From IMG/VR virus record IMGVR_UViG_3300042691_029527, positions 1 to 24,249 of that record: a stretch of DNA of 24,249 bases. One strand, written 5' to 3'. A program made the position numbers and the translations under genes. Below, piece after piece: positions 15,159 through 24,146 of the stretch. The stretch is from a virus. Every line of letters starts with the position of its first letter. Within the stretch, counting starts at the first letter, position 1. Below the pieces are notes generated by a model, which saw only the letters and a program-made list of their open reading frames with translations, did not search any database and was not told where the DNA came from.

Positions 15159-15176
15159 TATCGTATTGGGGAAGTG

Positions 15177-15207
15177 CTAAGGGGTTCCCGTTATGGGAAC
15201 CCCTTAG
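15177..15207. terminator. 13-bp perfect hairpin between the capsid and 69-aa genes
   Basis: CTAAGGGGTTCCC (15177-15189) and GGGAACCCCTTAG (15195-15207) form a perfect 13-bp stem with loop GTTAT. It begins 9 bp after the capsid stop in the minus direction. There is no T-run, so attenuation or protection of the capsid mRNA from 3' decay is as likely as full termination. Confidence 0.6.
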
Positions 15208-15215
15208 CGGATTAA

Positions 15216-16493
15216 TTAGGCAGCGGGAGTAGTGCTGGTGCGATCAAAGATGATCGCGTAGCCGAACTCGGTCTTGATCGGTTTTGACGCGCTGGCAAGG
15301 ATGCCACGGAAGAAACCATTCGTGCCGTCGGGGTTGGCGGCTTCGCTGAGGATGTTGGTCCACTTGAAGTCACCGCGATAGTTGACGGGATTGAAGGTCA
15401 GACCGTTCGAGCCAGACATCGGGTTCGGGATCTGCGACTCCATCACTTGCGGGTGGATGATGTAGGCAGCTTCAAACTTAGCAATGTCATACTCAGAGTT
15501 GTAGCTGGTCACGCCGTTGGTAACGGTATAAGGCTGAACACGGGTGAGGGTTCCGGACACATCTTTGAAACGTGGTGCAAGATCATCAACCAGATGGTAG
15601 AAACCACGGAAGGACTTCTCGACGCCGAGCGGAGCGATGAGATCCGAGACTTTGGCGTTGTTGTAACGCACGTCGTCACGGAAACCAGCTTCGGTTTGCA
15701 GCGAGTAGGAAGCCTCAGAGCTGAGGACAAGCGCGAAGACCGGACGACCGTTTTCCTTGCCATACGATTCAGCGGCAGCGCCTTTACGCACAAGCTGGAA
15801 ATACAGCGAGTCGAGGATCTTGTTGCTGATGTTAGCGGAAGCGTTGGTAACTGCGTCGGCAGCTGCGAGAAGAGTCGTGCCTTCTTTTGTGGCTACAGTA
15901 GTTGTGCCTGTGCTGGCACAGACAACCATGTTTCCACAGAGGCGGTCATACTCGTCACGATAACGGTTTTCCCAAGTGTAGCGGCTCGACTCAGTGAGGA
16001 GATCGAGAACAGCGCGGAGTTGCTCTTGACGATGCGCGGCGAAGCGGAGGTCTTCCAGCGAGATGCGCGGCGACTCGATAACAGCACGGCTGATGCTATA
16101 CGGCTTAAGTTGCTTGCTGAACTGGACAAATGAACGCTTGTCTAGTGTGCCTGTGCCACGTCCGCCTTGGACGTTGTCAGCAGCGTCTTTGAGGGGCTGG
16201 TTGAGGTCCGAAGTGTTGAACGCGTTGTTGGCAGTGTTGACAGTTCCAAGATCGGACCATGTGACGCCAACGTTACTACCAGCAGTGTCAATAGTCGGGA
16301 TAGCGCGGTCATAGACCAGAGTCGTCAATTGATAGCCCATGCCTTCAGGGAAGGCGGACTGCTTAACGAGATCCATCCACGGCGAAGTGTGGAGGGTGCG
16401 CTTGTAGATGTCCTGACCGATGCGGTTAGCTTCCTCGGCGAGGATGGTGTTGATTGCGTCGGTTCCGGTGGAACCAAGATCGAATGCGGGCAT
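15216..16493 (-). CDS. Major capsid protein
   Basis: The protein has 425 residues. It has the size, helix-strand mix and position (just after a scaffold-like gene) of an HK97-fold capsid protein. Typical content includes an N-terminal helix (INTILAEEANRIGQDIYKRTL), SPWMDLVKQSAFPEGMGYQLTTL, a long central helix region (AVLDLLTESSRYTWENRYRDEYDRL), and a late IIHPQVMESQIPNPMSG segment where the P-domain may end. There is no sign of an N-terminal delta domain, which fits a separate scaffold. It has its own promoter about 200 nt upstream. TTTAATACT precedes ATG. Identification rests on gene order more than on a motif. Confidence 0.75.
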   Translation of the reverse strand: MPAFDLGSTGTDAINTILAEEANRIGQDIYKRTLHTSPWMDLVKQSAFPEGMGYQLTTLVYDRAIPTIDTAGSNVGVTWSDLGTVNTANNAFNTSDLNQPLKDAADNVQGGRGTGTLDKRSFVQFSKQLKPYSISRAVIESPRISLEDLRFAAHRQEQLRAVLDLLTESSRYTWENRYRDEYDRLCGNMVVCASTGTTTVATKEGTTLLAAADAVTNASANISNKILDSLYFQLVRKGAAAESYGKENGRPVFALVLSSEASYSLQTEAGFRDDVRYNNAKVSDLIAPLGVEKSFRGFYHLVDDLAPRFKDVSGTLTRVQPYTVTNGVTSYNSEYDIAKFEAAYIIHPQVMESQIPNPMSGSNGLTFNPVNYRGDFKWTNILSEAANPDGTNGFFRGILASASKPIKTEFGYAIIFDRTSTTPAA

Positions 16494-16696: not shown

Positions 16697-16725
16697 AATA
16701 TACGAAAAAAGGGGGTTGGTGTCAA
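16697..16725 (-). promoter_or_regulatory. Strong sigma70-type promoter for the major capsid gene
   Basis: Minus strand TTGACA (16720-16725), a 17-base spacer and TATATT (16697-16702). Transcription would begin near 16690 and leave a leader of about 195 nt before the capsid ATG. The -35 hexamer lies in the loop and right arm of the preceding terminator. Confidence 0.7.
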
Positions 16726-16735
16726 CCCCCTTTTT
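16705..16735 (-). terminator. Rho-independent terminator after the scaffold gene
   Basis: GGGGGTTG (16711-16718), loop GTGT, CAACCCCC (16723-16730), extended by A and T runs on both sides. Reading the minus strand, the stem ends in TTTTTT. It begins 27 bp after the scaffold-like stop. The A/T runs on both sides make it bidirectional in form. Confidence 0.8.
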
Positions 16736-20934: not shown

Positions 20935-20962
20935 AGGATAGTATCGGCGGACTCGACGTCAA
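20935..20962 (-). promoter_or_regulatory. Candidate promoter for the NUMOD-like gene
   Basis: Minus strand TTGACG (20957-20962), 16-base spacer, TATCCT (20935-20940), then CGCCCC and ATG. The motif TACTATCC occurs just before the start both here and at the portal gene. Confidence 0.45.
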
Positions 20963-21009: not shown

Positions 21010-21047
21010 CGCCGAATGGCTGTCAATTTATTTTCTCCCTTAGATAT

Positions 21048-21122
21048 AAAAACTTTTCTATAACTACTATAAACAGTTTGCTCTATAGAGCAAACTGTTT
21101 ATCATCATTATAGAAAGTTTTT
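21048..21122. repeat. 75-bp nested inverted repeat with a 34-bp perfect palindrome
   Basis: The centre (21069-21102) is a perfect palindrome with half-site AAACAGTTTGCTC and centre TATA. Outside an imperfect gap, AAAAACTTTTCTATAA (left) pairs with TTATAGAAAGTTTTT (right) with one bulged base. A further half-site AAACAGTTTG is found at 21307-21316. The position in the non-coding control region suits an operator; an origin, a recombination site or a resolved-telomere site are other options. Confidence 0.85.
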
Positions 21123-21295
21123 GAAGTGGGGGGTGGCTACACCCGATCCCCAATCTCCGATCCCGTATCCTGTATCCAGAATCCGTTAAGCTGTAAGGCG
21201 TTATGGCGATAATGGCGTCGTGAACGTGGGGCTGATAAACGCAAATAAGTTGCGATAATGGGCTAAAAATAAAGTAAAAAGATTAATTTTCACTT

Positions 21296-21394
21296 ATGGG
21301 CAAATTAAACAGTTTGTGCTCTGAGGGTCAAAAAAAGGCCCAAAAAAGGGCTCTTATGAAACAATTCGACATGTTACATAAGCAGGATACTTAA
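21296..21394 (+). CDS. Doubtful 32-aa basic peptide
   Basis: ATG at 21296 to TAA at 21392-21394 gives a lysine-rich peptide (SEGQKKAQKRALMKQFDMLHK) that would form an amphipathic helix. There is no clear ribosome-binding site, and the frame overlaps the AAACAGTTTG half-site, so it may be chance. Recorded because it is the only plus-strand frame in the control region with a protein-like composition. Confidence 0.2.
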   Translation: MGKLNSLCSEGQKKAQKRALMKQFDMLHKQDT

Positions 21395-21484: not shown

Positions 21485-21637
21485 TCAGCCCTTTGCCGCC
21501 CAAATCAGTCCGGCATTCGCCGTCGCGTAGGACAGCCAGACCAGAGCCCACGCCGTCTCGCCCCTTACCGCATACGATACACCTACCGCCGCGTAGAGGA
21601 TCATCGCGAGACCGACGACTATCTGTTCAAAGCTCAT
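21485..21637 (-). CDS. Small two-span membrane protein (50 aa)
   Basis: ATG at 21635-21637 shares its A with the stop of the previous gene (TAATG), and TGA is at 21485-21487. The product begins MSFEQIVVGLAMILYAAVGV and has a second hydrophobic segment ETAWALVWLSYATANAGLIWA. Two membrane spans around a short VRGE loop. Function unknown; such small proteins are frequent in phages. The tight coupling to the upstream gene supports it. Confidence 0.6.
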   Translation of the reverse strand: MSFEQIVVGLAMILYAAVGVSYAVRGETAWALVWLSYATANAGLIWAAKG

Positions 21638-21906
21638 TAGGCTACACCGTCTCCCTTCACTACACTCCGAGAGTGTATCGTTGATTCCCGTTTCCTTTTT
21701 CGTTGTTCCTTGATCCGCTCTTTGTTCGCCTCGTAATACCGCTTGTTATACTCACGCATCGCTTCCCGTTCTTCAGGCTCTAGGAAATCGCGCACTTCAC
21801 GCTTTCTGACGATGATGTGTTTGTTCTTCGCGTAGTATGCCCGCTGGTATGTGATGCGTGCCTCCTTGTTTTTCCTGTAATACTCTTGTTTTTTGGCGTT
21901 TGGCAT
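21637..21906 (-). CDS. Basic protein with YYxxNK repeats
   Basis: The ATG at 21906 gives 89 residues. An in-frame start 111 bp further upstream is possible but would read through the promoter candidate. Lys, Arg and Tyr are very frequent; YY-x-x-N-K occurs at residues 9-14, 24-29 and 57-62, the kind of repeat seen beside HNH nucleases in phages, though no nuclease core is present. It probably binds nucleic acid. The stop overlaps the next ATG. Confidence 0.55.
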   Translation of the reverse strand: MPNAKKQEYYRKNKEARITYQRAYYAKNKHIIVRKREVRDFLEPEEREAMREYNKRYYEANKERIKEQRKRKRESTIHSRSVVKGDGVA

Positions 21907-22214: not shown

Positions 22215-22340
<126 letters not shown>

Positions 22341-22342
22341 CC

Positions 22343-22363
22343 ACTAGTGCGGCCCGCACTAGT
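22343..22363. repeat. Palindrome family, copy 1
   Basis: ACTAGTGCGG, C, CCGCACTAGT: 10-bp arms around one base. It lies directly after the minisatellite and 131 bp before the first plus-strand gene. Confidence 0.9.
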
Positions 22364-22494: not shown

Positions 22495-23019
22495 ATGAAT
22501 ACCGATAACTACACCGCCGCCCAAACCGCCGCCATTGAATCCGCCGCCGCCGCGATCACTGAAGCCGCCACCGCTTCACTTATCGCCATCGTTAAGGCTA
22601 AAGCGTCAATTGCCGCCGTGATCCGTGAGCAGGTCGCCGTCCTCTCGAAGGCGAAGATCGCCGACAAGGACATCGCCGCCATCGTGCGGGAAGCCGTTGG
22701 TGAAGCCTGCGTTCCAAGCACCATCAGCCGCACGCTCACCGAATGCGGCATCCGGCTTCGCGGCAAACGCAGCGATGCTGGCCACCTGAAAAGCGCGGAT
22801 GCTTTGCTCACCGCCGCTCTTGAAGCCAAGCCCGCAAAGGCAAAGCCGCCAGTCGATGAAGACGGCGATGGCAATGGCGATGGCGATGGCGATGGCGATG
22901 GCGATGGCGATGGCGGCGGCCATACCGCCGAAACCCTCGCGGCCCTCCTTCAGTCGATCGATCCGGAAATCGTCGCTGATGCGCTCGAACTCGCCGGACT
23001 GGCCGACATTCTCGGCTGA
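22495..23019 (+). CDS. Putative DNA-binding protein with Asp-Gly linker
   Basis: The ATG at 22495 gives 174 residues; an upstream in-frame start would add 34 residues of unlikely sequence. The first part is Ala-rich helices, then DIAAIVREAVGEACVPSTISRTLTECGIRLRGKR (about 59-92), which reads like a helix-turn-helix with a following basic wing. A flexible (DG)n linker (about 121-142) leads to a C-terminal helical pair (AETLAALLQSIDPEIVADALEL). A regulator or replication accessory role is inference. It is the first gene of the plus-strand palindrome array. Confidence 0.5.
   Translation: MNTDNYTAAQTAAIESAAAAITEAATASLIAIVKAKASIAAVIREQVAVLSKAKIADKDIAAIVREAVGEACVPSTISRTLTECGIRLRGKRSDAGHLKSADALLTAALEAKPAKAKPPVDEDGDGNGDGDGDGDGDGDGGGHTAETLAALLQSIDPEIVADALELAGLADILG
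22864..22911 (+). repeat. GGCGAT hexamer repeat encoding the Asp-Gly linker
   Basis: Eight GGCGAT units, one of them GGCAAT, encode alternating Gly and Asp (Asn once). In-frame copy changes would change linker length only. Confidence 0.85.
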
Positions 23020-23030
23020 ACATCCTCCAA

Positions 23031-23057
23031 GCCACTAGTGCAACCTGCACTAGTGGC
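23031..23057. repeat. Palindrome family, copy 2
   Basis: GCCACTAGTGC (23031-23041), AACCT, GCACTAGTGGC (23047-23057): an 11-bp perfect stem, 11 bp after one stop codon and 27 bp before the next ATG. It differs from other copies at the centre. Confidence 0.9.
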
Positions 23058-23084: not shown

Positions 23085-23312
23085 ATGAAAACCGCAACAC
23101 GCCTTACGATCTCCGATATTTCCGGAGCGAGAATCACGATTCCAGCAGGAACCCGCACGGCTCCGGCTTACAACATCCCAACGCCCACCAGCGGCAAGCG
23201 TCACCGCTGGGTGGTCATGGGCCGATGGGCCACGCCGCAGCAGAAGCGGCAATGGAAATTTGGCATCCTGCTGACTCATGATGAGGTCAAGGGCTTTGGC
23301 CTCACCCGCTAG
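23085..23312 (+). CDS. Small basic protein of unknown function (75 aa)
   Basis: The product reads TRLTISDISGARITIPAGTRTAPAYNIPTP, then RHRWVVMGRWATPQQKRQWKFGILLTHDEVKGFGL. Strand-rich, basic, with three Trp; no family recognised. The final codons and stop (CTC ACC CGC TAG) lie inside the third palindrome unit, so the end of the protein is supplied by the repeat. Leader GAAACATCTAAC, no Shine-Dalgarno sequence. Confidence 0.5.
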   Translation: MKTATRLTISDISGARITIPAGTRTAPAYNIPTPTSGKRHRWVVMGRWATPQQKRQWKFGILLTHDEVKGFGLTR

Positions 23313-23331
23313 TGCGGCCCGCACTAGTGGC
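23300..23331. repeat. Palindrome family, copy 3 (32-bp unit)
   Basis: CCTCACCCG flank, then CTAGTGC, GGCCC, GCACTAG, then TGGC. This 32-bp unit is identical to copy 4. It contains the stop codon of the 75-aa gene and lies 30 bp before the next ATG. Confidence 0.9.
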
Positions 23332-23557: not shown

Positions 23558-23589
23558 CCTCACCCGCTAGTGCGGCCCGCACTAGTGGC
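23558..23589. repeat. Palindrome family, copy 4 (32-bp unit)
   Basis: Identical over 32 bp to copy 3, including the CCTCACCCG left flank. It lies 4 bp after one stop and 23 bp before the next ATG. Confidence 0.9.
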
Positions 23590-24121: not shown

Positions 24122-24146
24122 CCGTTAGTGCGGACCGCACTAACGG
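24122..24146. repeat. Palindrome family, copy 5
   Basis: CCGTTAGTGC (24122-24131), GGACC, GCACTAACGG (24137-24146): a 10-bp perfect stem. The C-to-T change in the left arm is matched by G-to-A in the right arm, so dyad symmetry was kept. Confidence 0.9.

Follow-up and report, generated by a model that had tools for sequence, protein, structure and literature searches.

The long palindrome in the control region of this viral DNA appears to form the core of a 74-bp dyad-symmetric unit, made up of an A-tract, the palindrome and a T-tract, that would mark the late operons in a group of related phages. Sequence comparisons lead us to favor, with slightly more confidence than doubt, the reading that this unit controls the late operons as an operator-like site and co-evolves with a trans-acting protein. 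The first-pass annotation had offered three roles for the palindrome, namely an operator of an early/late switch, a replication origin and a target for a recombinase or telomere resolvase. The operator would fit best, given the copies of the element at both late operons, the −35 boxes downstream of them, the genome-specific sequence, and the adjoining protein of a DNA-binding type that appears to diverge along with the site.

The palindromic element and its genomic setting

The window, by which we mean the whole stretch of DNA analyzed, corresponds to an entire 24.2-kb virus record that is probably a fragment of a genome. Its late genes run leftward and include endolysins recognized by family match, while the early genes run rightward, starting at about 22.4 kb (Table 1). 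As first annotated, the palindrome is perfect, with 17 bp per arm and its center between positions 21085 and 21086, and it is enclosed by a second inverted repeat. The latter extends over 21049-21122 with 84% complementarity between its arms: the outer pairing comprises positions 23-31 and 34-37 from the center, and the spacers that separate it from the inner part are mostly unpaired. Among 100 sequences as long as the window, simulated under a first-order Markov model with the composition of the intergenic region around the palindrome, the longest perfect half-arm averaged 7.3 bp and never exceeded 12 bp, versus the 17 bp observed. The further half-site reported away from the palindrome is also present, and this 11-mer has three exact matches in the whole window against 0.03 expected, with a partial match at the same place in genomes G003 and G021. 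Accessory half-sites are clear in G015 and G018 and suggestive in the window, G003, G001, G027 and G006. As a general feature they were rejected, since in most genomes they do not rise above foreign half-sites.

Table 1. Positions of the element and of surrounding features in the window
Feature	Position	Strand	Remarks
Inner perfect palindrome ATAAACAGTTTGCTCTATAGAGCAAACTGTTTAT, 34 bp	21069..21102		Genome-specific
Left outer arm (A-tract first) and spacer	21049..21068		Bounds the 74-bp unit
Spacer and right outer arm (T-tract last)	21103..21122		Bounds the 74-bp unit
Extra half-site TAAACAGTTTG	21306..21316	+	Third occurrence in the window
TTGACA, −35-like box	21021..21026	-	59 nt downstream of the center, late direction
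Second promoter-like site TTGACG-16-TATCCT	20935..20962	-	Just before the next gene; consensus match only
Duplicated NUMOD4-like/I-HmuI-like protein gene, 152 aa	20470..20928	-	First gene after the element; candidate trans-acting factor
Portal-like protein, 767 aa	18162..20465	-	Next late-operon gene; named by size and gene order, no family match
Major-capsid-like protein	15216-16493	late, leftward	Named by size and order
Small basic protein gene	21637..21906	-	Conserved upstream of the element in relatives
Terminator-like hairpin GCCC TTTTTT GGGC + T7	21330..21351	-	Ordinary type, read from the sequence

The exact palindrome was absent from all 2.9 million viral contigs searched, and neither blastn with the palindrome region nor tblastn with the portal and terL proteins returned a match among 50,697 phage records. 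A search with the capsid protein, in contrast, yielded 79 related loci, and about 30 contigs were then retrieved. These relatives are phages of approximately 55-60 kb with an element of 71-78 bp upstream of the portal operon. In most of them it is built of an A-tract outer arm, a spacer, a palindrome, a second spacer and a T-tract outer arm, and precedes the portal gene by 500-1000 nt, as in the window. Their palindromes measure 26-36 bp, are perfect or nearly so, and differ in sequence from that of the window. Thus, of the possibility raised initially that close relatives with the same gene order might lack the palindrome, one part holds and the other does not: the sequence is absent from them, whereas the architecture is present in most. 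A pattern search with one version of the outer arm gave further members, in all of which the core is exactly 74 bp; a class of 62-bp hits was set aside as an apparently unrelated conserved sequence devoid of a palindrome.

Comparison of 18 representative genomes revealed that positions 1-16 from the center are paired in 13-18 of them, and each of these positions shows three to four Watson-Crick types; combining arms from different genomes gives an expected pairing of 0.24-0.42. Past position 16, pairing drops to 8-9 of the 18 genomes. Hence, the symmetry outlives sequence turnover, a stronger reason than the one first given for regarding the palindrome as maintained. The non-paired cells comprise 16 GU, 9 AC and 22 other combinations; as GU wobble is not clearly preferred, this weakly favors a DNA dyad over an RNA hairpin. 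The same behavior is seen at close range: between the window and its close relative L003 (G003), the portal proteins are 92% identical and the palindromes 74%, with almost all changes in the palindrome mirrored across both arms.

Beyond this group, the region is readable in 22 more distant relatives, none of which has such an element or the NUMOD4-like gene that follows it, and the joint absence of the two may represent a single event. Five loci (L033, L036, L037, L040 and L041) possess the gene with a degenerate or unrecognizable element. terL has relatives in MAG contigs from an Opitutae and a Blastopirellula, which provides a weak hint as to the host. The literature on conserved phage palindromes contained nothing relevant that we found, and that on Verrucomicrobia phages nothing matched to this phage group.

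Several other repeats were observed in the window. Strong hairpins at 15176-15208 and 16706-16735 (GCTAAGGGGTTCCC.. and AAAAAGGGGGTTG..CAACCCCCTTTTT) flank the capsid gene, are retained in close relatives and resemble ordinary terminators. An inverted repeat, AGGTGAACCCG..CGGGTTCACCT, at 399-430 within a 184-aa gene (319-873) also occurs in G003 and G021. The gap preceding the first early gene holds a CCTGTCT tandem repeat of about 17 units (22216-22335), and that gene itself contains a GATGGC tandem repeat (22854-22923) and, as judged by eye, a helix-turn-helix-like stretch (KIADKDIAAIVREAVGEACVPSTISRTLTECGIRLRGK). Another palindrome, with the core TAGTGCGGCCCGCACTA, appears five times among the early genes (22341-22362, 23031-23057, 23306-23331, 23564-23589 and 24122-24146), directly past a stop codon and ahead of the next start, with no T-tract; similar palindromes (TTAGTGCA..TGCACTAA) are found in several relatives.

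Additional copies and the neighboring NUMOD4-like protein

The window holds one copy of the element, and the results on paired copies come from the relatives. There, a second copy lies 20-30 kb off, with terL on one side and a giant-virion-protein operon on the other, and 18 genomes have copies at both late operons. A third copy precedes another gene in G004, G022 and G024, and tandem copies occur in G004, L172 and L173. The count is two to four per genome, and the same site stands at several promoters of one genome. Palindromes of one genome are 0.85-1.0 identical in 26 of 27 pairs (G012, the exception, was mis-centered), and those of different genomes average 0.40. The two main copies, compared in 16 genomes, have an identity of 0.83-0.96 over −39..+38 from the center, and outside this interval the identity falls to 0.2-0.5, which delineates a sharply bounded unit. 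Either orientation occurs, with the main copies inverted relative to transcription in 6 of these 16 genomes. This homogenization could be the product of gene conversion with no protein involved.

The copies are also associated with promoter-like sequences on one side. The −35 core TTGAC is found 37-190 nt downstream of the center in 26 of 35 copies, most commonly at 57-64 nt, versus only four over the same span upstream. Good −10 boxes accompany the third copies and several of the giant-operon copies (e.g., TTGACA-16-TACAAT and TTGACA-16-TATTAT); those of the portal-operon copies are mostly poor. Two further types of repeat were seen near the element in relatives. An extra inverted repeat, TGTATTTACATTGTA / TACAATGTAAATACA, flanks the terL copies beyond the 74-bp unit in G005, G016 and G021, and tandem short palindromes lie just downstream of the portal-operon copy in G014 (TGTCATAAATATGACA) and G001 (TTGCAGTAAATACTGCA), where they are possibly another operator array.

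In 40 loci the element region is followed by a gene for a protein of 140-180 aa, and in most genomes it is preceded by that for the small basic protein. By eye, the former protein consists of two similar halves. Its family profile retrieved I-HmuI (1U3E; E 0.014) as the sole match in the PDB, and Pfam NUMOD4 was matched by one member only, below threshold. An AlphaFold2 model (pLDDT 85, pTM 0.61) was consistent with this relationship: in a VIA search the single match at Z >=2 was again I-HmuI (Z 8.6, 2.4 A), with the alignment covering 68 residues of its N-terminal domain, and a viral structure library returned many HNH and homing endonucleases. From the PDB, Foldseek recovered nothing beyond weak ribosomal chains (TM <0.2). 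I-HmuI is an HNH homing endonuclease of phage SPO1, and the model suggests that the neighboring protein shares the fold of its N-terminal DNA-contacting domain. Unlike I-HmuI, the protein has two similar halves and a fixed place as the first gene after the element, and neither a conserved HNH pattern in the family alignment nor a match to an HNH family was found. Thus, as modeled, it looks like the DNA-binding part of a homing endonuclease minus the nuclease.

We then asked how far the site tracks this protein. Palindrome similarity correlates with the identity of the NUMOD4-like protein (Mantel r 0.39, p 0.0005), and the correlation persists after accounting for portal and capsid (partial Mantel 0.36, p 0.001), in a set of 16 genomes that share ancestry and in which the gene is linked to one copy of the element. 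The palindrome is not correlated with the portal (0.17, p 0.09) or the capsid (0.09, p 0.24); the small basic protein gave 0.29 (p 0.006), which fell to 0.10 (p 0.19) after the NUMOD4-like protein. Individual pairs illustrate the trend: with portals that are 0.87-0.90 alike, L005 and L018 have similar proteins (0.77) and palindromes (0.82), whereas in L016 and L018 both have diverged (0.32 and 0.35, respectively). As the distant copy co-changes too, linkage alone is an insufficient explanation, though gene conversion between the copies would suffice.

Alternative roles for the element

The main rival is a bidirectional intrinsic terminator, i.e., a long AT-rich hairpin insulating the late promoters, the copies of which stay alike via gene conversion. 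We consider this unlikely, though well short of negligible. Transcripts of both strands give stable folds (−31.9 and −34.8 kcal/mol; z −7.6 and −9.7), and the A-tract contains the stop codon of the upstream gene in G022, G019 and G024. The median T-run of the downstream arm and A-run of the upstream arm are both 5, against a control of 2, and terminal T- and A-tracts are expected of terminators too. Yet the outer stem is AT-rich and accompanied by internal loops, the outer arms are unequal between the sides in G009, G011 and G012, the late direction has TTTA only in G005/G016, and the wobble pairs show no preference. A terminator also has no need of the same 30-bp palindrome at two sites; the length of the palindrome and the ordinary GC-rich hairpins that serve elsewhere in these genomes count against it as well. 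The element is not in the list from the terminator scan; the ordinary hairpin that stands after the small basic gene (Table 1) is missing from the same list.

The sharp bounds of the unit, its occurrence in either orientation and the tandem copies would also suit a repeat spread or homogenized by recombination, such as a mobile palindrome or recombination site, with no regulatory role. This is improbable: the positions are fixed across genomes, and complete sequence turnover leaves perfect symmetry intact. Moreover, no tyrosine recombinase or integrase was found in 31 related records by searches with positive controls, which leaves host enzymes as potential agents. Among the genes of the relatives are those for a family A DNA polymerase, a helicase, a RuvC-like resolvase and a terminase. 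A replication origin, which a long AT-rich intergenic dyad between divergent gene blocks might bring to mind, is very improbable in view of the two to four copies, of which the one at terL lies between co-directional genes with no strand switch. Least credible of all is a telomere-resolvase target giving rise to hairpin ends. Sites of this kind resemble the element in length and symmetry, but several copies are present per genome, contigs cross the site uninterrupted, and no ResT/TelK resolvase was detected in the 31 related records (a control search detected the family; the window's own genome is incomplete). The initial proposal of a recombinase or resolvase target is therefore unsupported.

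An N4-like virion RNA polymerase that reads hairpin promoters was also considered. In the relatives, a giant virion-type protein of 3.5-5 thousand residues adjoins terL (e.g., L121:5606-16066 and L127:548-14590). The candidate was rejected: the giant protein of G022, the one scanned, has no convincing T7/N4-type motif, and the family profile has no match in the PDB. A search with PF00940 is uninformative, its controls being as silent as the search itself. More generally, the giant protein showed no Pfam or PDB match of note, including to polymerases; one stretch of it matches phrog_3170 (unknown).

A putative late-operon operator

Returning to the operator as the favored reading, we envisage that the symmetric site is bound by a phage protein, as a dimer or larger assembly, which then gates late transcription at both operons jointly, whether by activation, repression or a block to elongation. 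Both copies would have to fit one protein, so that they change together within a phage and differ between phages. If the element is an operator, the chances that the NUMOD4-like protein is its binder appear about even; being encoded right after the portal-operon copy, it would then control its own gene too. A bolder version, in which this nuclease-free duplicated protein is the late-gene regulator of the whole group and drives fast turnover of the 74-bp operator, with joint replacement of copies tens of kilobases apart, retention of symmetry and, as a result, a private control circuit for each phage, is possible but doubtful. For the phage of the window, the model predicts a further copy, with AAACAGTTTGCTC as the inner half-site, in the gap that separates terL from the giant-protein operon.

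By analogy, the element is reminiscent of the operator sets of Cluster A phages and the p4 repeats of phi29, and it fits the definition of neither. A dyad site common to all late promoters and located upstream of the −35 region is also known for the Ogr/Delta-type activators of P2/P4. Those sites are shorter and nearer the promoter, and the P2/P4 late promoters lack a good −35, whereas TTGACA is common near the element here. In the Cluster A mycobacteriophages (L5, Bxb1), one protein acts on several operator/stoperator sites per genome, which are alike within a genome and diverge between relatives alongside the protein (PMC6550527). Those sites, which belong to the immunity repressor, are numerous, short and without symmetry, and most of them point the same way (PMC6550527), in contrast to a 74-bp symmetric unit with two to four copies in either orientation, in genomes where no repressor or integrase was recognized. 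In phi29, A-tract inverted repeats bound by protein p4 control late transcription at the early/late switch (PMC3100819). The p4 consensus, CTTTTT-15-AAAATG, is far shorter and has no long central palindrome (PMC3100819); the outer arms of the element do not conform to it, standing about 50 bp apart around such a palindrome, and no relative of p4 was identified here.

If this picture, with the NUMOD4-like protein as the binder, is true, the element would also serve to recognize late operons in a phage group not described before. These phages would then constitute a natural set of operators matched to their proteins, with a binding specificity that has changed and a circuit that has stayed constant, making DNA reading by NUMOD4-like domains directly testable by exchange of pairs. 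They would further show how parts of homing endonucleases turn into regulators, and how distant sites within one genome change in step.
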